Shown here: in pieces, positions 3,716 through 23,093 of the stretch
Position numbering within the stretch: the stretch's first letter is position 1
Layout of the letters: the number at the start of each line of letters is the position of its first letter
Virus record (IMG/VR): IMGVR_UViG_3300010299_004828
Location: 1 to 23,093 of that record
Direction: 5' to 3' (one strand)
Source: a virus
Length of the DNA stretch: 23,093 nucleotides
Program-made: the position numbers and the translations under genes
The notes under the pieces: model-generated
Told to the model about the DNA's origin: nothing
The model's database searches: none
What the model saw: the letters and a program-made list of their open reading frames with translations, nothing else

Positions 3716-4386
3716 AAGTATTCGTAGGATATGATACGAGAGAAGACATTGCATACCAGGTGTGCAAGCACAGCATAATCAGCAAGCAGCCCCAGGCTGA
3801 CGTGCAACCATTGAAACAACAGGAACTGCGCGAGGCTGGATGGTACACGCGTGGCATTGACAAATTGGCTTCAACGGAATTTACATTTACACGATTCCTA
3901 ATACCCGAACTGACGAACTTCAAGGGTTGGGCACTGTTCATGGACTGTGACATGATACTAACCACGGACATCAAGGAACTGTTTGATTCCGCTGATGACA
4001 GATACGCAGTTATGTGCGTGCAGCATGATTACAAGGTGCAGGAAGGATTCAAGATGGATGGACAGAAGCAGACTGTGTATCCTAGGAAAAATTGGTCCAG
4101 CGTGGTGCTTTGGAACTGCGGACATCCAAGCAATAGGGTGGTTACTACTGATTTGGTTAATGATGAGAAAACCACCGGAAAATATCTACACAGGTTCAGT
4201 TGGCTCAAGGATGAAGAAATTGGAAGCCTCAATCACACGTGGAACTATCTCGTGGGAGTCTACGATGACATAGAAAAACCAAAACTAATTCACTATACCG
4301 AGGGTGGACCTTGGTTTGAAAATTATAGGAACTGTGAGTTCCACCGAGAATGGAAGGACGAACTGTCCCACATGATGAAGGACTGA
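3712..4386 (+). CDS. Glycosyltransferase, GT8-like (GT-A fold)
   Basis: A 224-aa cytoplasmic protein with the layout of a GT-A retaining transferase of the GT8 type. MKVFVGYDTRED opens the first strand, GWALFMDCDMIL (72-83) carries the DxD metal/nucleotide-sugar motif (DCD, 78-80), NCGHP sits mid-protein, LNHTWNYL resembles the 'D.d.lN' region, and HYTEGGPWF takes the place of the usual His-x-x-G-x-x-K-P-W end motif. It would transfer a hexose from UDP-sugar. ATGA overlap upstream and TGATG overlap downstream place it in a coupled operon between GT-B paralogues 1 and 2. Acceptor unknown. Confidence 0.82.
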   Translation: MKVFVGYDTREDIAYQVCKHSIISKQPQADVQPLKQQELREAGWYTRGIDKLASTEFTFTRFLIPELTNFKGWALFMDCDMILTTDIKELFDSADDRYAVMCVQHDYKVQEGFKMDGQKQTVYPRKNWSSVVLWNCGHPSNRVVTTDLVNDEKTTGKYLHRFSWLKDEEIGSLNHTWNYLVGVYDDIEKPKLIHYTEGGPWFENYRNCEFHREWKDELSHMMKD

Positions 4387-5162
4387 TGAAGGAAAAATCT
4401 CTTGAAGAATCACTGGTATTGGGTTCCGGCAATAGGCTTACCACGGATCCAAATGACAAGACTAAACCATTGGTGGTTAGGGGAGTAATCAAGAGAGATC
4501 ATGTAAATCAGTGCATAAAGGATGGCAGAGACTTCTATTACATAGACACGGGCTATCTGGGCAATTTTCCCAGCGTTGGCAATCCTAGTGGCAAGAAGAT
4601 TTGGCACAGGGTAGTCAAGAACGAAAATCAACACAGCACGATAAAGGAAGTACCATCAGATAGATGGGAACGATTGGTTGAACAGGATCCTAGGCTGGAG
4701 TGGAAGGGTTGGAAGAATCATGATAAAAAAATTCTACTCGTGATGCCCAATCCCAAGGCGTGCAAGTATTACAATTTTGATTATGACGAATGGGTGGAGG
4801 AAACCAAGGATAAGATTTCAAGGTACACTGGCTTGCCCGTAGAAACCAGGATAAAGGGATCCCGCTCGGAAAGGAACAAGGGCTACACGATACATGACGC
4901 CCTTGACAGCGGCACATACGCAACGGTTGCATTTAACAGCATAGCGGCACTGGAGTCAGTGCTGTACGGAGTGCCCGCATTTGTTTCCGTGCCCTGTGCG
5001 GCAGCACCCCTGAGCAGTTTTGATTTATCGCAGTTGGATGCTCCATTCAAACCATCGGAAGAACTGATAGTAAAACAGTGCAGGCACGTTGCATACGGAC
5101 AGTTCACGATAGAAGAAATTGAAAACGGCACTGCGTATGAACTTACGGAAAGATACTCATGA
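4386..5162 (+). CDS. GT-B-like glycosyltransferase paralogue 2
   Basis: A 258-aa protein, closest in the window to paralogue 1: GRDFYYIDTGYLGN (47-60), WHRVVKNENQH (73-83), KKILLVMPNP (114-123), YTGLPVETR (147-155), FNSIAALESVLYGVPAF (183-199), DLSQLDAPF, and an end with HVAYGQFTIEEIENG. Start chosen at 4386 because the ATG overlaps the previous stop as TGATG; a start 36 bases upstream in the same frame would lie within the GT8 gene. The two genes share near-identical spacing of motifs across their full length, so they arose by duplication before the GT8 gene came between them, or the GT8 gene was part of the duplicated unit and lost from one copy. Confidence 0.7.
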   Translation: MKEKSLEESLVLGSGNRLTTDPNDKTKPLVVRGVIKRDHVNQCIKDGRDFYYIDTGYLGNFPSVGNPSGKKIWHRVVKNENQHSTIKEVPSDRWERLVEQDPRLEWKGWKNHDKKILLVMPNPKACKYYNFDYDEWVEETKDKISRYTGLPVETRIKGSRSERNKGYTIHDALDSGTYATVAFNSIAALESVLYGVPAFVSVPCAAAPLSSFDLSQLDAPFKPSEELIVKQCRHVAYGQFTIEEIENGTAYELTERYS

Positions 5163-6298
5163 AACTGTTACTGAATGACAAGGAAATAGCGCACTTCCTC
5201 AATCACAGCATTGATTACTGTGCAAGGGTGCGCAGGGCCATACAGTATGATGATCCTCATACCCAGGATGTCATAAACTCATTCCTTGATAGGGATGCAG
5301 TTCGCAAGGAAAAGGCATACAAGAAAAAATCCGAATACATTCCGCAGAAGGACGTGATGGATGCTGAAACAAAAACAAAATTCTATGACAAGGTAAAAAA
5401 GGCAGTGATTAGAGATTTGGAAAACTACGTTTATACCGTGAAACAGACTGCATCATTGATTAGAGAGCAAAACTTCCATGGCATACACAGGAACATAGAA
5501 CAAATCATATCGAGACTGGGCAAGGAGAAAATTTTTGCCAGATACATGAAATCCAACTATAGTAACTTCATCAAGGGAACCGGTACCAGCCTTACCAACA
5601 CGCCAATCCTGATGAGGCGCAAAGAATTTAACAATCACAGCGAGGATTGCCTGCTGAGGAACACCGTTGGCAATGAGGACCTATTGGTAAACAAGATAGC
5701 AAAAAATTATCCCATGTGGTTCATAGACAGTGGCTACACCAACTTCCTGGAACCAAACAAGAAATGGCACAGGCTGGTGAGGAGCCATCTGCACTACGGC
5801 AAGGAGTTTGACGCACCCGTCAATAGATTGAACAACTTTCCAATATTTCCGGTACCGTGGAGAAAGAACGGTGAGATAATCTACGTGATAGAGCCTGGAC
5901 CCTTTGCGGCAAAAATTTTTAACTGTGACTTGAAAAAATGGAAGTATGACGTTGCCCGAGAGCTTAGAAAATATACTGACAAGAGAATAGTGTTTCGAAG
6001 AAAGGCTCCCTTGCGACAGAGACCAAAACTAATTAGGCAACTGCTGGATGATGATTACTACTGCGTGGTTAGCATTAACTCAAATTCAGCAACCGAGGCT
6101 ATATGGGCGGGTGTTCCAGCAATCACCCTGGATAGGCACATAACCAATCCAGTCACAAGAAACAAGCTCAGTGACATCAATGACTTATACTATGGCGATA
6201 TCAAAAATTGGTTGTGCATGCTGAGCTACAGCCAATTTACCAAGCAGGAGCTCATGGATGGAACTGCCAAGAAAATAATTGATAGATACCATGTCTAA
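5159..6298 (+). CDS. GT-B-like paralogue 3 with long N-terminal extension
   Basis: A 379-aa protein. Residues about 145-379 match the paralogue family: MWFIDSGYTNF (186-196), KKWHRLVRSHLHYG (201-214), EIIYVIEPGP, KYTDKRIVFRR (271-281), and INSNSATEAIWAGVP (306-320), then LSYSQFTKQELMDGTAKKI. The first 140 residues are extra: Lys/Glu-rich helices without a motif I recognise (for example NEDK-rich 43-100 and RNIEQIISRLGKEKIFARYM). They may be a protein-interaction or acceptor-binding domain. The ATG overlaps the previous stop (ATGA). The role as a glycosyltransferase is inferred from the family signature only. Confidence 0.68.
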   Translation: MKLLLNDKEIAHFLNHSIDYCARVRRAIQYDDPHTQDVINSFLDRDAVRKEKAYKKKSEYIPQKDVMDAETKTKFYDKVKKAVIRDLENYVYTVKQTASLIREQNFHGIHRNIEQIISRLGKEKIFARYMKSNYSNFIKGTGTSLTNTPILMRRKEFNNHSEDCLLRNTVGNEDLLVNKIAKNYPMWFIDSGYTNFLEPNKKWHRLVRSHLHYGKEFDAPVNRLNNFPIFPVPWRKNGEIIYVIEPGPFAAKIFNCDLKKWKYDVARELRKYTDKRIVFRRKAPLRQRPKLIRQLLDDDYYCVVSINSNSATEAIWAGVPAITLDRHITNPVTRNKLSDINDLYYGDIKNWLCMLSYSQFTKQELMDGTAKKIIDRYHV

Positions 6299-7211
6299 AA
6301 TTACGGCAGTTGCATACTACGGGGGAATCCCAGCAAACAACTCCAATCCAGAAAAACCTCTCATCCTGGATAACTTCCTACAGGGAGTCAAAAACTCAGG
6401 AGACACCGCCGTGGCACATAGGAGCATGAACGTGTTGGACTGTGACGTGGCATTCATACAGGGTTTCGTACACGAACACGGCAAGACGGCACCGCACCTA
6501 CAATTGAGGAGGAGGGCAGTGGAGCATCAACGCGTGAATGGCAAGCGCTCGCTGATAGTGGACAGCAATTTGTTCCTGTATGCGGATCCCGGCAATACCA
6601 AAAGATATCTACGCTACAGTTTTGATGGAGTTTTTCCAACCACGGGATTCTATTTTGATAGGGAGATTGATCCCACTAGATGGCAGAAGATTAGTAAAAA
6701 CCTGGGGATTACACTCAAGGAATACAGGAAGGATGGTAAACACATCCTTGTTTGTTGCCAAAGAAACGGAGGATGGTCAATGAAGGGAGTACCCGTACAG
6801 GATTGGTTGAATGACACCATACGTAAAATTAAATCATTTAGTGATAGACCAATCGTTGTTAGACCACATCCAGGAGACAAAAAGTGGAGGACGTACCTAA
6901 GAATTACAGATAAGAACGTTACACTAAGCACAAAACACATAGGAGAAGATCTAAGGGGTGCTTGGGCATCAGTGCTTCATAACAGCAGTCCTGCTGTTGC
7001 CAGCACCATAGAAGGTGTACCAGTTTTTCTAACTGATCCTAATCCTGAATTTAGTCAGGCAGCAGAAGTTTCAAACACAAATCTAAAAAGATTAGAGGAT
7101 CCAAAGACATTTGATAGGAAGGCATGGATAGAGAAATTATCAATGTGCCATTGGAACTTTGAGGAATTGCGATCTGGAGAAGCCTGGCAGTTTTTTAGAA
7201 AATTTATTTAA
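6291..7211 (+). CDS. GT-B-like paralogue 4
   Basis: A 306-aa protein of the same superfamily but more diverged. Family landmarks are HILVCCQRNGGWSMKG (151-166), DRPIVVRPHP (185-194), HNSSPAVASTIEGVPVF (230-246), and a C-terminal LSMCHWNFEELRSGEAW. The RPHP motif, shared with paralogue 5, is typical of capsule-type transferases. Start placed at ATG 6291, which overlaps the previous gene by 8 bases; an in-frame TTG 12 bases upstream is less likely. Its stop overlaps by 8 bases the stop of the convergent minus-strand glycosyltransferase gene, leaving no room for a classical terminator. Confidence 0.68.
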   Translation: MSKITAVAYYGGIPANNSNPEKPLILDNFLQGVKNSGDTAVAHRSMNVLDCDVAFIQGFVHEHGKTAPHLQLRRRAVEHQRVNGKRSLIVDSNLFLYADPGNTKRYLRYSFDGVFPTTGFYFDREIDPTRWQKISKNLGITLKEYRKDGKHILVCCQRNGGWSMKGVPVQDWLNDTIRKIKSFSDRPIVVRPHPGDKKWRTYLRITDKNVTLSTKHIGEDLRGAWASVLHNSSPAVASTIEGVPVFLTDPNPEFSQAAEVSNTNLKRLEDPKTFDRKAWIEKLSMCHWNFEELRSGEAWQFFRKFI

Positions 7212-8049
7212 ACTGTTGCCAGTAAGGTTCTGACCTAGCAATCCTTAAATCATCTCTCTTGCTCATGCCCAATTGCTTTCTACCACCCTTAAGATGATCA
7301 AGATATGCACCCCATTCACAATTAATTAAAGGATGCCCTTCTCCTGTTGACATGCCGGGTTTAGGTCTAATGTCTCCTAGACCTGCGCTCCAGTTGTGCT
7401 CATTTAAATTAGTAAATCGCTTTCTTACTTCATCAAAGACAAAACTATCATGCCATTCAGCCATTTGAAATATGCCATTGTTTTCTGCCTCATCATAGAC
7501 CCTTTGAAATTCTGTAAGAAAGTCCTGTGTGCCATTGTTTGTAAGATGAAGCGCGTACAATCCACACTCAGAATATTTTCCTTTCCTTCCAAGGAAACAA
7601 ATATCCTTCTTGCCAGGTAATAATCTCTGTAGATCCTTTTCTGTTATAGGACTGTGGCAAAACGTATCAGCGTCCATCCACATTAACCATTCGCTATTGC
7701 ATTCCTTAGCGCAGGCAAATATGCTATATACCTTGTGCGCAAATCTAACTGCATGCCATTTGAATCCTTTGCCTGAGTCCTTTCTCTTGCTTCTTATAGG
7801 ATCAGCACTGACGTCACCATTGGCCTTGGGTACATTTTTCCATCGCTCCTTGAATGCTACTAGTTGTGGACTTGATGCGTGTAAATCTCTTACAATTAAG
7901 TTTGGTGCAGTTTGGTCAACAATACAATCTTCTGCATAGGCATATAATTTTACGGTGGTTGGCCAATTCTTCGTATACGATTCTATCATTCTCCTGCCAT
8001 ATTGATCGTATCCTGATTTATGAAAAGTTGTCACTACGCTTATGCTCAT
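7204..8049 (-). CDS. DxD-containing glycosyltransferase-like protein (GT-A)
   Basis: A 281-aa protein with a GT-A layout: ISVVTTFHKSGYDQYGRRMIESY at the start, KWHAVRFAHKVYSIF before the WLMWMDADTF strand (DAD at 126-128), then SECGLYALHL and a WHDSFVFDEVR segment. The same order is seen in the product of 15424-16188 (VTFAKKGYAMI, LLIWVDADI, SAAESGFVII, WYDGNV), so the two are distant paralogues. It likely transfers a sugar from a nucleotide donor; acceptor unknown. The start at 8049 makes an ATGA overlap with the stop of the 132-aa gene before it; an ATG 15 bases further upstream also exists. It is the second gene of a minus-strand pair. Confidence 0.72.
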   Translation of the reverse strand: MSISVVTTFHKSGYDQYGRRMIESYTKNWPTTVKLYAYAEDCIVDQTAPNLIVRDLHASSPQLVAFKERWKNVPKANGDVSADPIRSKRKDSGKGFKWHAVRFAHKVYSIFACAKECNSEWLMWMDADTFCHSPITEKDLQRLLPGKKDICFLGRKGKYSECGLYALHLTNNGTQDFLTEFQRVYDEAENNGIFQMAEWHDSFVFDEVRKRFTNLNEHNWSAGLGDIRPKPGMSTGEGHPLINCEWGAYLDHLKGGRKQLGMSKRDDLRIARSEPYWQQFK

Positions 8050-8444
8050 ACTACCTTGCTCCATTGATGACAGAAGTCGAGTTGTGCTATTGCCCTGTAT
8101 CCTAATTGATAAAGAGTTTTTGTGTATTGTCTTTCAAGAACATCGTTTCCTTCAACAAAGACATCTGGCCAAACCTTACTAAGCAATGGAGATAGAGATT
8201 CTATGTATTCCACCTTGTCTAGATCTATGAATACTCCTCCAATGTCTCTCAATTCAAAAACTGCCTTGGCATCTGTCCTTGTTATCAAATTTTTTGCCTT
8301 TTTCACCACTGTAGAATCCAATAGGAACACGGTATTGAACATGCCCAGCAAGTCATCAAGATGATCAAAACCATCTCCCACCACCAAACAGTCTATTGGA
8401 GATTTTTTTATGCTTTTGGCAATTCTTTTTTGATGCTTGTTCAT
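8046..8444 (-). CDS. Small Rossmann-like protein of unknown function
   Basis: A 132-aa protein with an alternating strand-helix pattern: CLVVGDGFDHLDDLL (19-33), TVFLLDS (38-44), DIGGVFIDLDKVEYI (67-81), VWPDVFVEG (91-99), and a closing YRAIAQLDFCHQWS. The first three strands resemble a short methyltransferase or nucleotide-binding core, with GDGFD where a GxGxG loop would sit and an acidic residue ending strand 2, but it is too short for a full class I methyltransferase (usually about 200 aa or more). First gene of a divergently expressed pair; it is translationally coupled to the glycosyltransferase by ATGA, so the two products may work together. Function unknown. Confidence 0.72.
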   Translation of the reverse strand: MNKHQKRIAKSIKKSPIDCLVVGDGFDHLDDLLGMFNTVFLLDSTVVKKAKNLITRTDAKAVFELRDIGGVFIDLDKVEYIESLSPLLSKVWPDVFVEGNDVLERQYTKTLYQLGYRAIAQLDFCHQWSKVV

Positions 8445-8452
8445 AGTTTATC

Positions 8453-8460
8453 ATTAAATA
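8453..8460 (+). promoter_or_regulatory. Late-promoter-like ATTAAATA for paralogue 5
   Basis: ATTAAATA followed by C lies 22 bases before the ATG at 8483, with a good ribosome site (GGAGAG, 8475-8480) between. One of two back-to-back elements in the 38-base gap between divergent genes. It differs from TATAAATA at two positions, so it is weaker evidence than the site at 2141. Confidence 0.35.
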
Positions 8461-8466
8461 CTCATA

Positions 8467-8474
8467 TATTTATT
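8467..8474 (-). promoter_or_regulatory. Late-promoter-like AATAAATA for the minus-strand pair
   Basis: On the minus strand AATAAATATATG lies 22 bases before the ATG at 8444. It is one mismatch from TATAAATA and overlaps the likely start region of the plus-strand promoter, so the two may compete. I see no clear ribosome site for the minus-strand gene. Confidence 0.45.
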
Positions 8475-8482
8475 GGAGAGAA

Positions 8483-9337
8483 ATGCGTTTCAAACTTTTT
8501 AGACAGCACGGAGCACTTAACAGTCCCCAAATATTTGATGCCTTCGAACAGGGCATTACAAACATCGGTCATACCTCGGTGAATAATAATCAAGACGTCA
8601 GCGTAATTTGGTCCGTGCTGTGGAATGGAAGAATGAGAGCAAATGAAAAAATTTATAACGAAGCAATCTCACAGAATAAACCCGTGATAATCATAGAAGT
8701 GGGAAATTTGATAAGAAATAAGACCTGGAGAATATGCCTCAATCACATCAATGGACTTGGAATATTTGGTAATGATTCTGAGCTGGATCCATCAAGACCC
8801 CAACAATTAGGCATCAGACTTTTACCAGAAAAAACAAAAAGGAATCCACAAATTTTGATTGCCACACAGCACGAAAAAAGCCTACAATGGAAGGGCATGC
8901 CCCCGATGAAAGATTGGACTGCGGAAATCATTAAAGAATTAAGGAAATTTACTGATAGGCCAATAGTGATTAGGCCACATCCAAGATCACCAATGATGTT
9001 GTCTCAGAATATGGAAAACGTAGTCATACAAAAACCCACACAGATAAAAAATTCATATGATGATTTTGATATCAATTACGATTATCATTGCGTCATAAAT
9101 CACAACAGTGGCGTGCCAATATTGGCAGCCATAGCAGGAACTCCCGTCATAACGGGACCTTCAAGCCTTGCCCACCCAGTTAGTGATACAATTGAAAATA
9201 TTGAGAATCCCAGCCTGCCAATGAGGGACGATTGGTTGGTGGCAATATCACACTGTGAATGGACGATTAATGAAATAGCCGAGGGGATTCCCATGAAAAG
9301 ATTGGAAGACAGCATCATGGCACAATTAAACAGTTGA
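8483..9337 (+). CDS. GT-B-like paralogue 5
   Basis: A 284-aa protein, most like paralogue 4: QILIATQHEKSLQWKGMP (123-140), a DWTAEIIKELRKFTDRP stretch, DRPIVIRPHP (158-167), INHNSGVPILAAIAGTPVI (205-223), and SHCEWTINEIAEGIPMKR at the end. The N-terminal third (1-115) differs from all other copies. The family signature reads 'HNSGVPILAAIAGTPV', so the Ala-Ala-x-Glu turn of paralogues 1 and 2 is changed, which could mean a different donor or loss of activity. ATG with GGAGAG four to five bases upstream. It is separated from paralogue 4 by the minus-strand pair, which looks inserted into the array. Confidence 0.68.
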   Translation: MRFKLFRQHGALNSPQIFDAFEQGITNIGHTSVNNNQDVSVIWSVLWNGRMRANEKIYNEAISQNKPVIIIEVGNLIRNKTWRICLNHINGLGIFGNDSELDPSRPQQLGIRLLPEKTKRNPQILIATQHEKSLQWKGMPPMKDWTAEIIKELRKFTDRPIVIRPHPRSPMMLSQNMENVVIQKPTQIKNSYDDFDINYDYHCVINHNSGVPILAAIAGTPVITGPSSLAHPVSDTIENIENPSLPMRDDWLVAISHCEWTINEIAEGIPMKRLEDSIMAQLNS

Positions 9338-9368
9338 TTTTTTCCAAGATTGGAAATATAATGTAGTC

Positions 9369-10556
9369 ATGTCCACGAACACATACATAGAAGATATATT
9401 CATGAAGTTCTTCATAGCAATGTCACACAATGGAGTGGGCATGCTACCACGTGACACTGATGCGGCATCAAGTTTCTACATGAGCCTGCTGGAAGGTGAT
9501 GACATAACTGAAAAGCAGGGCACCTACATCCTCAAAATTCTCAACAAGTATTCTGATACCTGCGCTCCCTACTATGATTATAGGCAACTGCTTGCCAATC
9601 CCAAGTGGAAGAAACCATTCAGGATCGTGGATTACCGCAAGCAGATTTGGGTGGAGAGAGATGACAGCGACGTGCTTTGGATATGCCTAAAATTTCCGTT
9701 TCAGTTCAAGGAGACATTTGACGCGCAGATAGCGAACACCAGCAGTTATGCCAGCGGAATAACCGTGTGGGACAGGCAGAGAAGAATTAGGAAACTGTTC
9801 CTGTATGATTACAACATAATCCGAATAGTTGAATTCTGCAGGGAGCATGGATTTGAGATTGCTGACACTGCGGTTGAGGCCGTATCAGCGGTTGAGGAAA
9901 TATGGAACAATCAGGAACAGTACCTGCGCACCTCAAGGATAGAAGATGGAAGGGTCGTGCTGTCCAATGCCTCCGAGGAAGCGCTTGAATACTTTCGAGA
10001 GCACGGTACCGGCAACACGATGTCAAATTTAATTCTAGCCAAGAACTTGGGCTACGTGTACTCGGGCAGGGGCAGCTCAATGATCGAGAGGATAGCGTCC
10101 AGCCACACGAACACGTTTCACATCAAGAACCTGAAAGACTTCCTCAGGCTGTGTTATGAGGTTGAGGGTAAAATAGTAATCCTGTTGGACAAGACTGAAC
10201 AGTCAATAAATTGGGTGCGCGGTCTCGCAAGGGTGATAAGAGAAAACAAACATGACGCCAAGGACTTTAGAGTGTGCTTTCGAACCAGCAACAGCCTGGA
10301 TCCTGACTTCAACAAATGGGTTAACGAGAATGGTTTTGGAGGAAAAATTAGTGATGCCAAGTTCCTAATCTTCAGAGAAAAACCCGCAAAGTGGTTGTTC
10401 AAACAGGAAAAAGATGCTATAATAGTGGCTAGCAATGATTTGCTGCCGGGACTAAACGGTTCCGCGAGATCGATGCTGAAATCACATCCTTGTGTCATAT
10501 ACATCAGTGAATACAAGCCTGTGAAACAACACGGAGAAACAATAATTGAACTGTAA
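9369..10556 (+). CDS. 395-aa phage protein of unknown function upstream of uvsW
   Basis: A 395-aa soluble protein. Seen: a mixed alpha/beta N-terminal half with YDYRQLLANPKWKKPFRIVDYRKQIWVE (about 77-104) and WICLKFPFQFKETFDAQ, a middle rich in acidic helices, and a C-terminal half with alternating hydrophobic strands (KIVILLDKTEQ, FRVCFRTSNS, AKFLIFREKP, DAIIVASNDL, PCVIYISEYKP) like a helicase or Rossmann half-domain, but I find no Walker A or other nucleotide motif. The gene overlaps uvsW by 11 bases, a coupling that suggests shared function in recombination or DNA repair. Start is uncertain: ATG 9369 has a poor ribosome site, and ATG 9402 (MKFFIAMSHNG) is an alternative. Unlike its glycan neighbours it looks like a phage core gene. 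No function is assigned. Confidence 0.82.
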   Translation: MSTNTYIEDIFMKFFIAMSHNGVGMLPRDTDAASSFYMSLLEGDDITEKQGTYILKILNKYSDTCAPYYDYRQLLANPKWKKPFRIVDYRKQIWVERDDSDVLWICLKFPFQFKETFDAQIANTSSYASGITVWDRQRRIRKLFLYDYNIIRIVEFCREHGFEIADTAVEAVSAVEEIWNNQEQYLRTSRIEDGRVVLSNASEEALEYFREHGTGNTMSNLILAKNLGYVYSGRGSSMIERIASSHTNTFHIKNLKDFLRLCYEVEGKIVILLDKTEQSINWVRGLARVIRENKHDAKDFRVCFRTSNSLDPDFNKWVNENGFGGKISDAKFLIFREKPAKWLFKQEKDAIIVASNDLLPGLNGSARSMLKSHPCVIYISEYKPVKQHGETIIEL

Positions 10557-12003
10557 GCTCATAATAAAGGACGAGGTTAACGTGAAGTTTGAGGGGTTAG
10601 CCGTGGAAACTCGTAGGAAGATAGTCAACAAGCTGAAATACGATTTACCATACGCGAGGCACATGCCCGCATACAAATTGGGACGCTGGGATGGCACCGT
10701 TAGTTTCTTTGGCATTGGAGGCAATGGTTTCCTCGCACATCTCGAAGTTGCACTGCCCATAGTTGAGAATGATGGTTATGACATTGAGGTAATCGATCAA
10801 AGGCAACACAAGAAATACGAATTTGAAAAGATAGATGAAAACTACTGGGCAGACAAGGGCATAGTTTGGCCGGAAGGACATCCGGAGGCGGGCAAACCAA
10901 TCATCCTGAGGGATTATCAGTACGACGTGGTAAACAAGTTTCTTGAGAATCCACAATCATTACAGGAAGTTGCCACGGGTGCGGGAAAGACGATTACGAC
11001 GGCAACGCTTTCACATCTCTGCGAGCCATACGGACGCACGATGGTGATAGTGCCAAACAAGAGCCTCGTTGTACAGACTGAGGAGGATTATAAAAACTGT
11101 GGACTGGATGTTGGAGTATACTTTGGAGACAGGAAGGAACTAAATCACACCCACACAATCTGCACGTGGCAGAGCCTAAACGTCCTGGAAAAGAAGAGCT
11201 ATGACAGTGATACCCTATCCCTTGCGGAATTCACGGAGGGAGTTAATGCCGTCATAATAGACGAGGTGCACCAGGCAAAGGCTGACGTGCTGAAGAGACT
11301 GCTGACGCAGAATTTTAGGAATGCTCCAATTAGATGGGGACTGACTGGCACCGTGCCCAAGCAGCAGTGGGAATTCCAAGGAATCCTCGCTGGCATTGGA
11401 CCCGTGATAAATCAGGTAACCGCACATGACTTACAGGAGAAGGACGTGCTGGCAAGGCTGGACATACAGATACTACAAACCAAGGACGTGGAAGAATTCC
11501 GCAATTACCAGGAAGAATACACTTGGTTGGTTACGAACGAGAGAAGATTGAAATACATCAGCAATCACGTGTCAGCAGTAGCCAAGAACGGAAACACGCT
11601 GGTGCTAGTAAACAGGATTGACACGGGCAAGAAACTGCTGGAGAACATTCCCGATGCCACGTTCATCAAGGGAGATGTCAAGCTGGATGACAGGAAGGAA
11701 CAGTACGACGAAATCAAGACGTCACACGGCAAGATTATAATAGCCACATATGGAGTTGCAGCCGTGGGCATCAACATTCCACGAATATTCAATCTCGTAC
11801 TGCTGGAACCTGGCAAGAGCTTCGTGAGGGTCATCCAGTCAATTGGAAGGGGCATAAGGAAGGCTGAGGACAAGGACTTCGTGCAGATATGGGACATCAC
11901 CTCCACCTGCAAGTATGCGAAGAGGCATCTTACGGAAAGAAAGAGATTTTATAGAGAAGCAAAATATCCACACACGGTAACAAAGGTAGACAGAGGATTT
12001 TAA
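10546..12003 (+). CDS. uvsW: UvsW-like superfamily 2 helicase (apparent TTG start)
   Basis: A 485-aa DNA/RNA helicase of the T4 UvsW kind, which unwinds R-loops and branched DNA and helps switch replication from origin-dependent to recombination-dependent initiation. Motif I ATGAGKT (143-149), motif II DEVH (239-242; T4 has DECH), motif III LTGT (266-269), IIIATYGVAAVGINIP for motif V (397-412) and motif VI QSIGRGIR (431-438) are all present and in order. The N-terminal 100 residues, with PAYKLGRWDGTVSFF, match the small DNA-binding domain of UvsW (T4: YGNWDGRI). No ATG occurs before codon 40, so the start is TTG at 10546, 9 bases after GGAG (10533-10536) and overlapping the upstream stop. 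Length is close to T4 UvsW (about 500 aa). Confidence 0.93.
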   Translation: MNCKLIIKDEVNVKFEGLAVETRRKIVNKLKYDLPYARHMPAYKLGRWDGTVSFFGIGGNGFLAHLEVALPIVENDGYDIEVIDQRQHKKYEFEKIDENYWADKGIVWPEGHPEAGKPIILRDYQYDVVNKFLENPQSLQEVATGAGKTITTATLSHLCEPYGRTMVIVPNKSLVVQTEEDYKNCGLDVGVYFGDRKELNHTHTICTWQSLNVLEKKSYDSDTLSLAEFTEGVNAVIIDEVHQAKADVLKRLLTQNFRNAPIRWGLTGTVPKQQWEFQGILAGIGPVINQVTAHDLQEKDVLARLDIQILQTKDVEEFRNYQEEYTWLVTNERRLKYISNHVSAVAKNGNTLVLVNRIDTGKKLLENIPDATFIKGDVKLDDRKEQYDEIKTSHGKIIIATYGVAAVGINIPRIFNLVLLEPGKSFVRVIQSIGRGIRKAEDKDFVQIWDITSTCKYAKRHLTERKRFYREAKYPHTVTKVDRGF

Positions 12004-16190: not shown

Positions 16191-16970
16191 ATGAAAGTAG
16201 GAATAGTAGGTTACGGTTGGATTGGAAAAGCAACTCAAAAACTTTTTCCAGATGCACAAGTGTATGACAAGTATATCGAAGGATACACCAAACCATTGGA
16301 AGATTGTGATATTGCGTTTCTTGCAGTTCCTACACCGTGGAATCAAGGAGACGGATTAGATTGTTCCGCCGTGGAAGATGCAATTGCCACATGTGGATGT
16401 GATTTTATTGTAATACGTTCTGCAACACAGCCTGGCTTTGCGGATGAGATGGTTAAAAAATACAAGAAGCGTATTGTTGTTCAACCGGAATATCTAGGCG
16501 AAACTCCCAATCATCCTTTCCTACAAATGGAGTCCAGACAGTTCATGATTCTCGGTGGAGAACCAGAAGACAGGCGAAAAGTCATTGAATGCTATCAGCA
16601 GGCATACAATGCAAATGTGACAATTAGGCAGGTTACTAGATATGAAGCAGAGATTATTAAATTCTCTGAGAACCGTGCTATCTTTTATAAAGTGATGCAA
16701 TGCCAAGAATTGTATGATGCATGCGAAGCAGCAGGAGTAGATTATTATACAATTAGAGATGCTGTATACGGAGACGATCCTAGACAGAATTTATGGTTTA
16801 GTTTTGTGTTTCCAAAAAATAGAGGAGCAAATAGTAAATGCATACCTAAGGACATTTACGGTTGGTGTGCGTGGGCAGAAAGTGTTGGCATAGATCCAAC
16901 TGCAACAAAGTCATTGCTTGAATACAATAATACTCTAATAAAAAGGAACAAAGATGGGAAAGAAAAATAA
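16191..16970 (+). CDS. Short UDP-sugar dehydrogenase-like protein
   Basis: A 259-aa protein of the UDP-glucose/GDP-mannose dehydrogenase family, which oxidises a nucleotide sugar to its uronic acid with NAD+. The Rossmann loop VGIVGYGWIGKA (3-14), AVPTPW (45-50), and VQPEYLGETP (97-106) match the NAD-binding domain; TRYEAEIIKFSENRAIFYKV (149-168) is the central helix; NSKCIPKD (214-221) holds the catalytic Cys217 with the PKD triplet (families usually read GSCFPKD). The C-terminal UDP-binding domain (about 100 residues) is missing: relatives run 390-450 aa. It may be a minimal active form or one that binds an unusual substrate. It overlaps the next gene by 17 bases. Confidence 0.82.
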   Translation: MKVGIVGYGWIGKATQKLFPDAQVYDKYIEGYTKPLEDCDIAFLAVPTPWNQGDGLDCSAVEDAIATCGCDFIVIRSATQPGFADEMVKKYKKRIVVQPEYLGETPNHPFLQMESRQFMILGGEPEDRRKVIECYQQAYNANVTIRQVTRYEAEIIKFSENRAIFYKVMQCQELYDACEAAGVDYYTIRDAVYGDDPRQNLWFSFVFPKNRGANSKCIPKDIYGWCAWAESVGIDPTATKSLLEYNNTLIKRNKDGKEK

Positions 16971-17808: not shown

Positions 17809-19470
17809 ATGACTGAAATAATTGCCAAATATCATGCACAGAAAAAACTTTTTTCTTCTGATGTTTCTAGATTAAATTTGTTAGATTTAAAATTAGAAAA
17901 TACAATTAATAATTTACAAAAAAGAGTCAATGTTTGGATGAATCATAATTTTGAATCTATTGTTCCTACTATGATTCCATATTTGCAATATCAAAATTTA
18001 AATTTAGATTTCCATTTTAGTGATTACGATGATTCATTTTTGTTTAATGGATATGAGAATGCTGAAATAGAAATAGTGTTTATGAATATGCAATCATATC
18101 AGAATAAATTAAATGAGAGTGATTTAATAGGGTGGATTGAAGAAAGAATTAGTTATTTGCGAGAAATTTCTAAAGGAACTATTTTAGTTGTATCCTGGAA
18201 TAACAAAATTAAAAACCAAATTGAGCAAATAATAACTAACATTCCTCAGTGTCATTATATAGATTTATCTGACATTGCAATTCAAAAAAATATTCCGTTA
18301 CTTGACACAAGAACTGAAAAATTATCTGGAACACCTCTAAGCAAAAAATTCCAACAAGTATTATCAAGAGAGTTATCCTGTAAATATATCCCGGCATGTT
18401 TATTTCCTTCTATAAAAGCAGTATGTTTAGATTTAGATAATACTTTACATCAAGGAGTATTAGGAGAAGACGGAATTGACGGTGTTATATTATCCGAAGA
18501 ACATAAGTTGTTACAAGAAATGCTTAAAAAGTTAAAAGAAGATGGCATATTCTTAGCACTTGTATCAAAAAATGATGAACAAGACGTTTTAAATTTATTT
18601 CAAAGTAGAACCGAGTATCCGTTATCTATTAAAGATTTTAGTGCGATGGAGATTTCCTGGGATAGTAAAACTGATTCGATAATTAAAATTTCTAAAAAAT
18701 TAAATATAGGAATCGATTCCATATTATTTGTAGATGATAATATAGGAGAACTTCTTTCGGTAGTTTCATCATTAGAAGGCATAAAGACAATACATGCATC
18801 GGATAACGCAACTTTAACCAAAGAAATAATTAGTAACTATCCCAGAATATGGAAATGGAGCATCAGTGAAGATGATAAAAAAAGAGTAAATGATCTTGGT
18901 GCAAATCAAGAAAGAGAAAAAATCGCAAAATCTTCACAAAATTTGAATGAGTATTTTAAGAGCCTTGGTGTTACATTGTCATTTGATTACAACAATATAA
19001 ATCATGCTCAACGAGTGACCGATCTGTGTAATAAAACAAATCAATTTAATTTATCACTAAACAGAACGCAAGAACTTGATATTTCAAATAAAATTAAACA
19101 AGATAATTGTTGTGTTGCAAGTGTAAGTTTATCAGATAAATTGTCAGACAGTGGCATTATCGGAATTGTTCTTGCAGAAACCGATCATTCAAATTTATTA
19201 ATTACAGAAGTTTGTATTAGTTGTCGAGCCATGGGAAGAAATTTAGAAGATACTATTATTTTTACTTCTATAAAAAATATGGATATATTTAAAAATCTTA
19301 AGACAGTAACATTTAATATAAAACAAGGACCAAGGAATCAGCCAGCAATCAATTGGTTAAAAAAATTAACTAAACAATCAGTTCACAATGAAGAAAAAAT
19401 AATTATAGATGCTGAAGTAATTAAAAATTTTAATTCTTTAAAAGAAATTGATATAAAGGTGCAAAAATGA
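17809..19470 (+). CDS. FkbH-like protein (HAD phosphatase + GNAT-like domain)
   Basis: A 553-aa FkbH-family protein. In bacterial relatives it takes 1,3-bisphosphoglycerate, removes a phosphate, and loads the D-glyceryl unit on the phosphopantetheine arm of an acyl carrier protein. HAD motif I reads CLDLDNTLHQGVLGEDG (206-222) with Asp208 and Asp210; family members usually have Trp where this has His214. LALVSKNDEQDV is motif II, and LFVDDNIGE motif IV. The C-terminal part carries the usual VTDLCNKTNQFNLSLNRTQ segment and a GNAT-like end (ISCRAMGRNLEDTII). Residues 1-195 are an N-terminal extension like that of FkbH proteins from O-antigen clusters. Its 4-base ATGA overlap with the ACP gene supports a joint function. 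Very AT-rich. Confidence 0.92.
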   Translation: MTEIIAKYHAQKKLFSSDVSRLNLLDLKLENTINNLQKRVNVWMNHNFESIVPTMIPYLQYQNLNLDFHFSDYDDSFLFNGYENAEIEIVFMNMQSYQNKLNESDLIGWIEERISYLREISKGTILVVSWNNKIKNQIEQIITNIPQCHYIDLSDIAIQKNIPLLDTRTEKLSGTPLSKKFQQVLSRELSCKYIPACLFPSIKAVCLDLDNTLHQGVLGEDGIDGVILSEEHKLLQEMLKKLKEDGIFLALVSKNDEQDVLNLFQSRTEYPLSIKDFSAMEISWDSKTDSIIKISKKLNIGIDSILFVDDNIGELLSVVSSLEGIKTIHASDNATLTKEIISNYPRIWKWSISEDDKKRVNDLGANQEREKIAKSSQNLNEYFKSLGVTLSFDYNNINHAQRVTDLCNKTNQFNLSLNRTQELDISNKIKQDNCCVASVSLSDKLSDSGIIGIVLAETDHSNLLITEVCISCRAMGRNLEDTIIFTSIKNMDIFKNLKTVTFNIKQGPRNQPAINWLKKLTKQSVHNEEKIIIDAEVIKNFNSLKEIDIKVQK

Positions 19471-19691
19471 AAAATATAGAAAATAAAGTAATTTCAGTTA
19501 TTTCTAAAGTATTAAAGGAAGATGTTGATATAGATACATCTAGAAAAAATTCTAATAATTGGGATTCTCTTAAACACATCGAAGTTATATTTGCAATAGA
19601 AGATGAATTTGAAATTGAATTCACAGAAGAAGAAATGTATAAAATGAATGATGTATCTTCATTTGTTAGGAAATTAAGTAATGAAGCATAA
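19467..19691 (+). CDS. Acyl carrier protein
   Basis: A 74-aa acyl carrier protein with the attachment motif WDSLKHIEVIFAIEDEFEIEF: Ser34 of D-S-L would receive the 4'-phosphopantetheine arm from a holo-ACP synthase (none is visible here, so the host's is presumably used). Length and acidic four-helix pattern fit a discrete ACP (about 75-80 aa). A ribosome site AAAGGTG lies before the ATG. It overlaps FkbH upstream by 4 bases and the GNAT gene downstream by 11 bases, so all three are coupled. It is most likely the glyceryl- or other short acyl-carrier for FkbH; a fatty-acid role is unlikely because no elongation enzymes are present. Confidence 0.93.
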   Translation: MKNIENKVISVISKVLKEDVDIDTSRKNSNNWDSLKHIEVIFAIEDEFEIEFTEEEMYKMNDVSSFVRKLSNEA

Positions 19692-20259
19692 TTACAAACT
19701 TTCTGAATCTATTTTTCAAATGCGTCCCATTAATAACAATGATGCAGAATTTACATTGATGTTAAGAAATGATAGTAACTTAAACCATTACTTGAATAAG
19801 ACATCTAATAAAATCAGCGATCAGATTGCCTGGTTAGAAAACTATTACAAAAAAAACGATGACTTTTACTTTGTAATCGAACGTATAAAAGATAAAAGGC
19901 AGGAAGGATTAATTGCTTTATATGATATTGATTTTAAAAATAACACGGCAGAATGGGGTAGATGGATACTAAGAACAGAATCAATGGCTGCTATAGAAAG
20001 TGCTTTAATGATTTATAAATTTGCCTTTGAAGAGTTAAAACTTGAAAAAATTTATTCTAGAACTGTTTCGTTAAATAAAAAAATAGTATCTTTTCATGAT
20101 TCGTGTGGCATTACAAGTAAAAAAGTTTTGAAAGATTATTTCGAATTAGACGGGAAAAAAGTCGATTCTATAGAACATACTGTCGACAAAACAACGTATA
20201 GTGATGTAGTTAATAAATTAGAAAAACTTTCTAATCTTATGGCCAAAAGAATATGCTAG
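19681..20259 (+). CDS. GNAT-family acyltransferase
   Basis: A 192-aa GNAT N-acyltransferase of the RimJ/RimL or PseH type. MRPINNNDAEFTLMLRNDSN is the usual start of the fold, EGLIALYDIDFKNNTAEWGRWIL the core strands, and a helix SALMIYKFAFEELKLEKIYSRTVSLNKKIVSFHDSCG carries the familiar 'N..s...hek.Gf' region. In amino-sugar pathways such enzymes N-acylate the 3- or 4-amino group made by a DegT aminotransferase; here the acyl donor could be the FkbH-loaded ACP instead of acetyl-CoA. The ATG overlaps the ACP stop by 11 bases and AGGA precedes it. The C-terminal tail is basic. Donor and acceptor are not visible from sequence. Confidence 0.84.
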   Translation: MKHNYKLSESIFQMRPINNNDAEFTLMLRNDSNLNHYLNKTSNKISDQIAWLENYYKKNDDFYFVIERIKDKRQEGLIALYDIDFKNNTAEWGRWILRTESMAAIESALMIYKFAFEELKLEKIYSRTVSLNKKIVSFHDSCGITSKKVLKDYFELDGKKVDSIEHTVDKTTYSDVVNKLEKLSNLMAKRIC

Positions 20260-20657
20260 AAAATTTAACTTTTCATCATTTAGGATATGCCACAAACAAA
20301 ATCGAGGATGAAATTGAATATTTTTTTAAATTAGGATACGAACTCGAAGGTAATTTTTTTGAAGACAAATTACAAGGAATTAGAGGGTGTTTTCTTGTAG
20401 GAAATGGTCCTAGATTAGAATTATTAGAAAATTTAAGTAATTCTAAAACACTTGATCCTTGGTTAGAATCAAAAATTAAAATGTATCATATAGCATACAC
20501 TACTAAAAATCTTAATTTTTCTATTAACTTAGCAAAAGAAAATAAAGGAAAATTAATTGTTCCTCCTACGACTTCTATTGCATTTAAAGGAAATCAGATA
20601 GCATTTGTATCTTTTAGAAATGCACCTTTATTAGAACTAATAGAATCGCTAGATTGA
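20253..20657 (+). CDS. VOC-superfamily (methylmalonyl-CoA epimerase-like) protein
   Basis: A 134-aa vicinal-oxygen-chelate protein. Two beta-alpha-beta-beta units are evident: FHHLGYATNKIEDEIEYFFKLGYE with His9, FLVGNGPRLELLENLSN with Glu56 or Glu59, KMYHIAYTTKN with His79, and NAPLLELIESLD with Glu128 or Glu131. The four metal-binding positions of methylmalonyl-CoA epimerase and glyoxalase relatives therefore appear filled. VOC genes next to FkbH and ACP occur in bacterial O-antigen clusters; here it might epimerise or process the ACP-bound three-carbon unit. A 7-base overlap with the GNAT gene places it in the same operon. It could also be a ligand-binding protein. Confidence 0.82.
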   Translation: MLENLTFHHLGYATNKIEDEIEYFFKLGYELEGNFFEDKLQGIRGCFLVGNGPRLELLENLSNSKTLDPWLESKIKMYHIAYTTKNLNFSINLAKENKGKLIVPPTTSIAFKGNQIAFVSFRNAPLLELIESLD

Positions 20658-20698: not shown

Positions 20699-20722
20699 TA
20701 TGCTACTATATTGGAGAAAACA

Positions 20723-21496
20723 GTGACTCGTAAAACTTATAATTTAAGCGATAATGGAGAAAATTCTATACGTAACGAAAAATCTGAAAAGAATCATAAT
20801 AAACTATACGAGTTTACTAAAGAATTGTTACCTTACTATGGAACAAATTGGCACCGTCAAAGTTTAGTTACATTAAAAACAGAAACACTTTCTGCAATTC
20901 TTGCATTAAATGCAATTTATCAAAAAATATTAGATATTCCTGGATCTATATGTGAGTTTGGAGTCCATTGGGGTGCAACGTCTTCAACTCTTATAAACCT
21001 AAGAAATTTATACGAACCTTACAACTATACTAGAATAATCTATTCGTTTGATACTTTTGAAGGTTTCGTAAATCTTGATAATAATGATGGCCAATTAAAC
21101 AAAATAGGAGATTATAAAAGTCTTCCTAATTATGAAAAAACTTTAGAAGAAATTTTAAAAATACACGAAGGATTTGGTCCTAATTCTCACTTACAAAAAT
21201 TTGAATTAATAAAAGGGGACGCATCGATAACTATCGATAAATGGTTAGAAGATAACCCACAGGCAACTATTGCTCTTGCAATATTTGATATGGACCTGTA
21301 TGCGCCTACCAAAAAAGTATTGGAAAAAATTATTCCAAGACTAACCAAAGGATCTGTATTACTGTTTGACGAATTAAATTGCAAAAATTTTCCTGGCGAA
21401 ACTCAAGCAGTAGATGAAGTGTTAGGTATTAATAATTTAAAATTAAGAAAATTACCTTGGCAGGCAAAACTTGCATATGCTATTTACGGAGAATAA
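20723..21496 (+). CDS. TylF-type SAM O-methyltransferase (GTG start)
   Basis: A 257-aa O-methyltransferase of the TylF/macrocin type, which methylates hydroxyls on deoxysugars or other glycan parts. GSICEFGVHWGATSSTLINL is motif I with the SAM-binding Glu, IIYSFDTFEGF follows as in the family, and ALAIFDMDLYAPTKKVLEKI and GSVLLFDELNCKNFPGE carry the two metal-binding Asp residues (DxD and the DE). Start chosen at GTG 20723 because GGAG lies 6 bases before it; a TTG at 20711 is in frame but its ribosome site would be poor. It has its own late promoter, so it may be expressed apart from the FkbH unit. Length about normal for the family (250-270). Confidence 0.87.
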   Translation: MTRKTYNLSDNGENSIRNEKSEKNHNKLYEFTKELLPYYGTNWHRQSLVTLKTETLSAILALNAIYQKILDIPGSICEFGVHWGATSSTLINLRNLYEPYNYTRIIYSFDTFEGFVNLDNNDGQLNKIGDYKSLPNYEKTLEEILKIHEGFGPNSHLQKFELIKGDASITIDKWLEDNPQATIALAIFDMDLYAPTKKVLEKIIPRLTKGSVLLFDELNCKNFPGETQAVDEVLGINNLKLRKLPWQAKLAYAIYGE

Positions 21497-21498
21497 AA

Positions 21499-22407
21499 AT
21501 GATATTATTAGCAGGATACGGTTACTGGGGTAAAAATTTAGCAAGAAATTTTTCTAATGAACTATCAGCAATTTGTGAAAAAGAGAAATCGCTGTTAAGT
21601 ATTGCAAAAAATTTATATCCACATGTTGACGCATACGATAATTATGAGCAGGCTTTAGAACATCCAGGAATCAAAGCAGTATTAATCGCAACAAAAACTA
21701 AAGATCATCTGCCTATGTCTAGACTTGCTTTAGAAAAAGGTTATGATGTATGGATTGAAAAACCAGTTTGTCAAGACATAAACGAAATTAAAGAATTAAT
21801 AAAAATTAGTGAACAAAATAATAAAATTATCTTTGTTGATCATACATTTTGTTATCATCCGGCGGTAGAAAAAATTAAAACAATTGACATCGGAAAACCT
21901 TTATATTTCGATAGCACTAGAATAAGTTTAGGACTGTTTCAACCTGATGTTGATGTAATCCTCGACCTTGCAATTCATGATGTAAGTATCATAAACTTTT
22001 TATATCCAGATTTAGAGTTAAGCGAAAAATATATAGTTAAAAATAATCATGTAAACAATATTCCTAATCAAGCAATTGTTAATTTAAAATTTACAAATGG
22101 TTTTACAGCCAACATTAATGTAAACTGGGTTAGTCCGGTTAAAAAACGAGAAATAATTTTAACTGGAAATAAAAGTAGCATTGTCTACGACGATATTGAC
22201 ACTGACAAAATAAAAATTTATCAAACCGGTGATATAAAAGAAGACTATAATTCAAATAAGTTAGGAGATATGATTGCACCTAGATTAGATACTACCGAAG
22301 CATTATTTCTTGGAAAAAAACATTTTTTAGAGTGCATAAAACATAGAACTCAGCCTAGAACAAACATTTACGAATCATTAAAAATAATGGAGTGGTTATT
22401 GTCATGA
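21499..22407 (+). CDS. Gfo/Idh/MocA-family oxidoreductase
   Basis: A 302-aa NAD(P)-dependent sugar oxidoreductase. MILLAGYGYWGKNLARNF (1-18) is the Rossmann start, VLIATKTKDHLPMSRLALEKGYDVWIEKPVC (61-91) includes the EKP motif whose Lys is catalytic in the family, followed by FVDHTFCYHPAV and DLAIHDVSIINFL, the position of the His used in sugar binding. Relatives such as WlbA oxidise C3 of a UDP- or dTDP-sugar to a 3-keto intermediate that a DegT aminotransferase then aminates, and here exactly such a gene follows with an ATGA overlap. Start at ATG 21499, with GGAG (21488-21491) upstream; a start 42 bases earlier would lie inside the TylF gene. The exact sugar is unknown. Confidence 0.88.
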   Translation: MILLAGYGYWGKNLARNFSNELSAICEKEKSLLSIAKNLYPHVDAYDNYEQALEHPGIKAVLIATKTKDHLPMSRLALEKGYDVWIEKPVCQDINEIKELIKISEQNNKIIFVDHTFCYHPAVEKIKTIDIGKPLYFDSTRISLGLFQPDVDVILDLAIHDVSIINFLYPDLELSEKYIVKNNHVNNIPNQAIVNLKFTNGFTANINVNWVSPVKKREIILTGNKSSIVYDDIDTDKIKIYQTGDIKEDYNSNKLGDMIAPRLDTTEALFLGKKHFLECIKHRTQPRTNIYESLKIMEWLLS

Positions 22408-23093
22408 TACCTTTTTATAGTTTTGAAAAAATACACGACTCTATAAAACACGAATTAATAGAAAAGTCTGCTGAAATAATAACCAGCGGAAATTATGTAT
22501 TTGGAACTAGTAAATTTGAAGAAGAATTTGCATCATATGTTGGTTCTAAGTATTGTATTGCTGTATCATCGGGCACATCGGCATTGCATCTGTCCTTATT
22601 AGCATTAGGTATTAAGCCAGGAGACGAAGTAATAACTGTAAGTCATACTTTCAGAGCAACTGTTGCTGCTATAGAGTATTGTGGAGCCATACCTGTTTAT
22701 ATTGATGTTGATAAAGATACATTTACAATGGATCATACTCAACTCGAAGATAAAATCAGCAATAAAACGAAGTGTATATTACCCGTTCATCTTTATGGTA
22801 ATATGGCTAACATGACCGAAATTATGTATATTGCAAATAAACATAATATACCTGTTTTAGAGGATTGTAGCCAGGCGCACGGATCAACTCTGGATAAAAA
22901 ACATGCTGGAACTTTCGGATCTTTAGGAACATTTAGTTTTTATCCTGGCAAGGGACTAGGAGCATTAGGTGACGCAGGATGCATAGTAACAGATAATAAA
23001 GAACTTTATGATTACCTCTGTAAGGCAAGAAGTTGGGATGATAACGAAATTGGATTCAATTATAGAATGTCAAACATTCAGGCTGAATTTTTA
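22404..23093 (+). CDS. DegT/DnrJ/EryC1/StrS-family sugar aminotransferase (5' part)
   Basis: The gene begins at ATG 22404 (ATGA overlap with the oxidoreductase) and is open to the window end, giving 230 residues of an enzyme normally 360-400 aa. It is a PLP-dependent aminotransferase that puts an amino group on a keto-sugar nucleotide. AVSSGTSALHLSL (53-65), FRATVAAIEYCGAIPVYID (83-101), CILPVHLYGN (124-133), LEDCSQAHGS (152-161), and SFYPGKGLGALGDAG (178-192) with Lys183 for PLP attachment are in the canonical order. Together with the Gfo/Idh gene this is the standard pair for making a 3-amino-3-deoxy sugar (WlbA/WlbE logic). The C-terminus lies beyond the window. Confidence 0.92.
   Translation, partial: MIPFYSFEKIHDSIKHELIEKSAEIITSGNYVFGTSKFEEEFASYVGSKYCIAVSSGTSALHLSLLALGIKPGDEVITVSHTFRATVAAIEYCGAIPVYIDVDKDTFTMDHTQLEDKISNKTKCILPVHLYGNMANMTEIMYIANKHNIPVLEDCSQAHGSTLDKKHAGTFGSLGTFSFYPGKGLGALGDAGCIVTDNKELYDYLCKARSWDDNEIGFNYRMSNIQAEFL

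Follow-up and report, generated by a model that had tools for sequence, protein, structure and literature searches.

Why would a phage carry its own acyl carrier protein (ACP) together with an enzyme to load it? The question is raised by four overlapping genes in the IMG/VR virus record IMGVR_UViG_3300010299_004828, a 23,093-base record that was analysed as a whole (the window), which encode, in order, an FkbH-like protein, a discrete ACP, a GNAT acyltransferase and a VOC metalloprotein. We think it likely that this FkbH-ACP-GNAT-VOC cassette, which lies in a jumbo myophage's exchangeable glycan island, is a module that N-acylates a C3-amino sugar nucleotide by way of a carrier protein. Gene content, gene order, residues, clade and slot are what we observed, and from these we infer all of the chemistry. 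The cassette consists of the following genes:

17809..19470, plus strand: FkbH-like HAD-IIIC protein, 553 aa, with an N-terminal domain, a HAD domain and a GNAT-fold-like C-terminal domain
19467..19691, plus strand: discrete ACP, 74 aa; PF00550; phosphopantetheine Ser34 in WDSLKH, codon 19566-19568
19681..20259, plus strand: GNAT sugar N-acyltransferase, FdhC-like, 192 aa; PF13302
20253..20657, plus strand: VOC metalloprotein (glyoxalase I / methylmalonyl-CoA epimerase type), 134 aa; PF13669; predicted ligands H9, E56, H79, E128

In coordinates, order and overlap lengths (4 bases between FkbH and ACP, 11 between ACP and GNAT, 7 between GNAT and VOC), the analysis of open reading frames (ORFs) agreed with the initial annotation, and hidden Markov model searches placed each of the four proteins in the expected family. 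FkbH scored 274.9 bits against the family profile TIGR01686 (cut-off 146.65) and is thus a member of the FkbH family. Its residues D208/D210, S253, K287, D309/D310, NQF 411-413 and SC472R (S471-R473) are invariant in seven cassette homologues, so that the protein holds the HAD Asp pair, the Ser/Lys motifs, the DD motif and the C-terminal NQF and SCR motifs. The top fold match of its AlphaFold2 (AF2) model (mean predicted local distance difference test, pLDDT, 88) is 3SLR, and there are also GNAT-fold matches, which presumably correspond to the C-terminal part. The ACP belongs to the family PF00550 (23.2 vs a cut-off of 20.8 bits), with W32-D33-S34 invariant in 10 homologues. Absence of the HAD and DSL residues from related genomes would have spoken against the initial annotation; they proved to be conserved in the relatives. 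Family membership, catalytic residues and the FkbH literature together support its view of FkbH and ACP as an acyl-loading pair, which in the tetronate and methoxymalonate pathways has been proposed to form glyceryl-ACP from 1,3-bisphosphoglycerate (PMC7489565).

The GNAT (PF13302, 48.8 bits) has FdhC of Acinetobacter as its closest solved relative (5KTA, E=3.7e-23; next best 3.9e-7), the aligned regions being about 36% identical, and shows 39-43% identity to the GNATs of the bacterial cassettes described below. FdhC N-acylates a 3-amino-3,6-dideoxy sugar nucleotide. Bacterial relatives of the cassette GNAT adjoin FdtA/QdtA cupins and DegT genes. The GNAT is therefore of the FdhC type both by closest solved homologue and by amino-sugar gene context (DegT/Gfo-Idh or FdtA), and its initial assignment as a sugar N-acyltransferase is supported. 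FdhC itself differs in acting without FkbH, ACP or VOC. A lone FdhC-like GNAT was also seen by the structural genes of an apparent P2/Mu-like phage (L105, 1475-1993), with no FkbH near and no other amino-sugar genes in view.

Which acyl group would this machinery handle? The VOC protein (PF13669, 50.7 bits) keeps H9/E56/H79/E128 invariant in eight homologues, and it has the 2-His-2-Glu metal site and the VOC fold of glyoxalase I. Its AF2 model (pLDDT 93) lies nearest to Ni-glyoxalase I (3HDP, template modelling (TM) score 0.88), above methylmalonyl-coenzyme A (CoA) epimerases (TM ~0.75), and it stays below the cut-off of the methylmalonyl-CoA epimerase equivalog TIGR03081 (39.5 vs 114.95 bits). 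Such a protein would suit an acylation module that uses an acyl group other than glyceryl, with FkbH mainly a phosphatase or transferase for another 2- or 3-hydroxyacyl (lactyl, 3-hydroxybutyryl), or with the VOC as a glyoxalase I that forms lactyl- or glyceryl-ACP from a hemithioacetal between the ACP thiol and methylglyoxal or hydroxypyruvaldehyde. The two Glu ligands E56 and E128 resemble those of glyoxalase I, methylmalonyl-CoA epimerase having Gln at the first of these positions, and FdhC handles 3-hydroxybutanoyl. However, FkbH has retained both the HAD catalytic set and the two motifs (NQF and SCR) of the family that loads glyceryl, and no ketosynthase, reductase or ligase for another acyl group was recognised in the window, whereas another viral FkbH locus (L011, see below) seems to have a KAS III and an SDR. 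We regard this alternative as unlikely and the acyl group as probably glyceryl, to judge from the motifs of the loading enzyme.

The acceptor is suggested by the genes that follow the cassette:

20711..21496, plus strand: TylF/Methyltransf_24-like methyltransferase; PF05711, 30.8 bits; ORF start 20711, real start uncertain
21499..22407, plus strand: Gfo/Idh/MocA oxidoreductase; PF01408; the ORF opens at 21457, the kin start MILL.GYGYWGKN is at 21499
22392..23093, plus strand: DegT/DnrJ/EryC1/StrS aminotransferase, cut by the contig end; PF01041, 254 bits; motif SFYPGKGLGALGDAG present

The Gfo/Idh protein is a predicted sugar C3 dehydrogenase; the DegT protein, whose relatives include QdtB (3FRK) and WbpE (3NU7), shows 70-75% identity in phage kin. 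Thirty relatives of the Gfo/Idh were found at 51-66% identity in viral contigs, DegT being nearly always the next gene, and in 15 of these loci there is a UvsX or UvsW gene from the window's phage group. What stands before the pair changes from phage to phage. Of the 32 matched viral loci, 28 have a gene for a sugar acyl- or formyltransferase no more than about 1.3 kb upstream of Gfo/Idh, in most cases as its direct neighbour (the contig end truncates two of the other four): a WbpD/NeuD-like left-handed beta-helix (LbH) protein in 17, an LpxA-like protein in 5 and a formyltransferase in 6, the last with the sugar 3-N-formyltransferases WlaRD and QdtF as best solved relatives. In the window the same slot is filled by FkbH-ACP-GNAT-VOC and the TylF-like methyltransferase. 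This swap is the strongest clue to the function of the cassette, and it supports the coupling to the Gfo/Idh-DegT amino-sugar pair that had been proposed at the outset. The transferases found in the slot, the likeness to FdhC and the FdtA or Gfo/Idh-DegT neighbours of the bacterial cassettes all argue for N-acylation of a C3 amino group. A 4-amino sugar was considered as the target and rejected, because the relatives of the kin-slot LbH proteins (QdtC, WxcM) and of the formyltransferases (WlaRD, QdtF) point to C3. Modules of the WbpB/WbpE/WbpD type for UDP-2,3-diamino sugars and of the WlaRD/QdtF type likewise pair Gfo/Idh and DegT, in kin phages with the N-acyl- or formyltransferase directly upstream; they employ a single CoA- or formyl-dependent transferase, in contrast to the four-gene, predicted ACP-dependent cassette of the window. 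The acyltransferase slot, Gfo/Idh, DegT and a glycosyltransferase-like gene form a recurrent jumbo-phage unit, seen at 21499-23093 of the window and in L242-L271.

Where does such a cassette come from? A GNAT-alignment scan found the order FkbH-ACP-GNAT-VOC in six bacterial loci, from Duganella (L112), a gammaproteobacterial metagenome-assembled genome, Thiohalobacter (L114), Gastranaerophilales (L116, where GNAT and VOC are fused in a single ORF), Hydrogenophilus (L117) and Bradyrhizobium (L159). Another nine cassette-type FkbHs came from a search of up to about 1,550 genomes with the FkbH profile alone; three of these held-out loci have the exact cassette (L231, L235 and L236, the last two from the same phylum as L116), and as the flanks span only about 1.5 kb, absences among them are weak. 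Since six bacterial and three held-out loci repeat the four genes with the order kept, the arrangement is far beyond chance. A VOC gene lies near seven of the nine held-out cassette-type FkbHs vs 1 of 29 canonical FkbH loci (Fisher p=2e-5). It stands beside FkbH and ACP in L238-L241, with no GNAT found in the flanks, and in phage contig L022 it adjoins ACP and FkbH, next to a beta-helix acyltransferase that takes the place of the GNAT. Because the VOC accompanies FkbH and ACP without the GNAT, it would belong to the acyl-ACP step and not to the transferase, and it probably has an as yet unassigned acyl-ACP function in the cassette. L239 (100-4573) has an AAC(3)-like N-acyltransferase, ACP, VOC, FkbH, a DUF4910/DUF2172 protein and DegT side by side, which ties FkbH loading to another acyltransferase class; its DUF4910/DUF2172 neighbour may be of the Cj1295 type.

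The phage FkbH nests inside the clade of the six bacterial cassette FkbHs (support 100/99), with 46% identity to the nearest bacterial relative found. Beyond genes, order and clade, the bacterial cassettes share with the phage the type of amino-sugar neighbour: an FdtA-type 3,4-ketoisomerase in L116, L235 and L236, Gfo/Idh and DegT in L114, and Gfo/Idh only on the L113 contig. They differ from it in lying in surface or flagellar glycan loci and in being often followed by a different methyltransferase (after VOC in L113, L114, L117 and L159, after GNAT in L115). In Thiohalobacter (L114, 9711-16535) genes for an Sfp-type phosphopantetheinyl transferase and the apparent flagellar genes FlgK/J/I/H/G come after the cassette, a context that suggests flagellin glycosylation. 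Tree and neighbourhoods thus point to a bacterial surface-glycan cassette that the phage has captured and that is rare in bacteria as judged by pattern-limited, sampled searches. The bacterial cassette is apparently still without a name; literature searches for FkbH with lipopolysaccharide or O-antigen, or for HAD-IIIC with polysaccharide, turned up nothing that matched it.

The same loci bear on whether the sugar might be made to modify phage DNA instead of a glycan on the surface or the virion. Methyltransferases and glycosyltransferases abound in the island, and phage glycosyltransferases often modify DNA. Yet the window showed no recognisable genes for base hypermodification, the bacterial cassettes occupy surface or flagellar glycan loci (by eye, with flagellar genes in L114 and a NeuB-like gene in L117), and C3-amino N-acyl sugars are typical of bacterial surface glycans. 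A role in DNA modification is in our estimate quite improbable.

Is the carrier of the cassette really a phage? Homologues of UvsX, UvsY and UvsW in the window indicate that it is. The nearest named phages by UvsW are the jumbo phages Phosso, Atu_ph07 and PA5oct (52-56%), and close UvsW relatives occur in 80 IMG/VR contigs, two of them of 357 and 383 kb, and most of these contigs share the gene order around UvsW. The window is a fragment of an aquatic jumbo myophage lineage. On its left, the cassette is preceded by two genes of that lineage:

16191..16970, plus strand: short nucleoside diphosphate (NDP)-sugar (UDP-sugar) dehydrogenase-like protein, left phage flank, 259 aa; PF00984/PF03721
16954..17808, plus strand: class I methyltransferase, the last conserved gene left of the cassette; 76-88% identity in L031 and L104

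Phage contigs L104, L031 and L242 have the dehydrogenase-like gene at 75-90% identity; its product is far shorter than the full-length enzyme models that it matched. The stop codon of the methyltransferase directly abuts the FkbH start codon, and beyond this shared gene L031 and L104 have glycosyltransferase, methyltransferase, AsnB-like and epimerase genes instead (annotated by eye). The GC content at third codon positions (GC3) is 0.12-0.25 in the cassette vs about 0.33-0.57 in most conserved core genes. TIGR01686 was matched in none of 50 kin phage records (as a positive control, the window and 10 others matched), so the cassette cannot be called common among these phages, a point on which the initial annotation had depended. 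Because kin share the left flank but continue with other genes, GC3 is low and the 50 kin records are empty, we conclude that the cassette is an import into an AT-rich, exchangeable glycan island.

Two further explanations of the same composition have to be weighed. The sharp drop in GC3, a contig end inside DegT and the failure to find a second viral contig with the cassette would fit an assembly chimera, bacterial glycan genes having been joined to a phage contig. The flanks contradict this: on the left, dehydrogenase and methyltransferase are 87-90% identical to L104; on the right, Gfo/Idh and DegT are 64-75% identical to phage contigs bearing UvsX/UvsW, whereas among the bacterial Gfo/Idh proteins next to a cassette the closest reaches only 40%. 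Stop and start abut cleanly at the junction, and the island's other variable genes are just as AT-rich. With both flanks of phage lineage we rejected a chimera, whose chance we put as very slight. Foreign composition and absence from the 50 kin records could also mean recently captured, hitch-hiking bacterial DNA that is non-functional and decaying. But all four genes are full length and overlapping, with catalytic residues kept, and FkbH, at only 46% identity, has survived a long divergence intact; decay too is hardly credible.

Two other features of the window were noted. Apparently related ORFs of 266-379 aa at 2915-9334 (g2915, g4350, g5159, g6279 and g8483) adjoin UvsW, are conserved across the phage lineage and have no Pfam matches where tested; they are possibly glycosyltransferases. 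A sulfotransferase-like ORF (by eye) lies on the minus strand at 1270-1953, between UvsY and a cytidylyltransferase-cupin fusion.

How unusual is this in viruses? Among 50,697 GenBank phage records FkbH had no true match; two unannotated human-gut records match, and one of them, L002, was set aside as no phage, being by eye like an integrative and conjugative element. IMG/VR gave only 15 FkbH loci, all divergent. Family alignments were needed to recover these relatives, single-sequence FkbH scans of viral and genome contigs having found no match. Plasmid FkbH neighbourhoods were polyketide or other loci and did not match the cassette, and the search for viral VOC relatives found none beyond L022 and L008. 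The initial claim that a carrier protein and loading enzyme are unusual in a virus stands as to rarity (0 of 50 kin, 15 IMG/VR loci); as to source, the cassette is of bacterial origin and not a viral invention. L022 (IMGVR_UViG_3300014838_000015), a 101-kb phage contig with apparent NAMPT and NMNAT-Nudix genes, independently carries epimerase, DegT, glycosyltransferase, beta-helix acyltransferase, ACP, VOC and FkbH genes in this order at 3615-9002. The viral L011 (IMGVR_UViG_3300031772_005065, 5113-11614) has in a row SDR, KAS III, methyltransferase, MaoC-like, FkbH, ACP, GNAT, FdtA-like cupin, dehydratase/epimerase and DegT genes (by eye except FkbH, ACP and GNAT), and seems from this to have a richer acyl-making pathway.

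What might the module do? Gfo/Idh would oxidise and DegT aminate C3 of an NDP-sugar, as their families and their 3-N-acyl- or formyltransferase partners in kin suggest. No phosphopantetheinyl transferase (PF01648) was found in the window, which is a fragment, or in 14 other phage records, including the two kin of 357 and 383 kb, and therefore a host enzyme would have to activate the ACP. FkbH, by its conserved residues and the reaction of its family, would take the three-carbon acyl group of 1,3-bisphosphoglycerate and remove the phosphate to give D-glyceryl-S-ACP. The VOC metal enzyme would then act at C2 of the acyl-ACP, most likely by inversion as an epimerase, which is the weakest step, and the FdhC-like GNAT would pass the acyl group on from ACP to the amino group at C3. 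O-methylation of the product by the TylF-like and other methyltransferases may follow, that by the TylF-like enzyme possibly on the acyl group or the sugar. In taking the place of the acetyl-, acyl- or formyltransferase of kin phages, the module would yield a different N-acyl group.

Several points weigh against this scheme. Although it belongs to the superfamily PF01408, the Gfo/Idh scores 118.3 bits on the UDP-GlcNAc 3-dehydrogenase equivalog NF040723, far short of the cut-off of 450, so that both the sugar and the C3 position are conjectural. FdhC uses acyl-CoA, and ACP use by the GNAT is accordingly read from gene order only. We know of no precedent for a VOC enzyme that epimerises a glyceryl thioester. 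Since the contig ends inside DegT, the glycosyltransferase and the destination of the sugar are out of view. Finally, the viral searches made here found the exact cassette in one genome only.

Comparison with known systems helps to place the cassette. Tetronate and methoxymalonyl-ACP operons (Mad7/Mad8, Mad14/Mad12, PMC7489565) resemble it in FkbH family and residues, an adjoining standalone ACP and predicted glyceryl-S-ACP. They differ in that the window is without the FabH-like tetronate former or the dehydrogenases leading to hydroxymalonyl-ACP, none of which was present among the window ORFs scanned, and has GNAT, VOC and amino-sugar enzymes as partners. The nearest chemical precedent is the flagellin glycan of Campylobacter jejuni: fkbH (cj1302) lies in its flagellin-glycan locus (PMC7099621), and di-O-methylglyceric acid is found on pseudaminic acid (PMC3068675). 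There too an FkbH is part of a sugar-modification locus and a glyceric acid derivative is seen on the sugar, but the sugar is a nonulosonic acid, not a C3-amino hexose, and the gene-by-gene route is unproven.

The analysis exposes a small, unnamed bacterial FkbH-ACP-GNAT-VOC cassette. A more far-reaching reading, speculative and in our view rather doubtful, is that this is the first viral ACP-dependent sugar acylation, that the phage changes the N-acyl group on its amino sugar through exchange of acyltransferase modules, that the VOC is a new metal-dependent glyceryl-ACP epimerase and that an N-glyceryl sugar on the virion or infected-cell surface acts as a chemotype switch. The known viral auxiliary genes for glycan decoration are mostly glycosyltransferases and CoA-dependent acyltransferases. 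If the module works as proposed, a phage with its own ACP and acyl-loading enzyme would represent a new route to viral glycan chemistry, and the swapping of acetyl, LpxA-like acyl, formyl and FkbH/ACP acyl transfer around a constant Gfo/Idh-DegT pair would be a natural experiment on what a phage gains by changing an N-acyl group.

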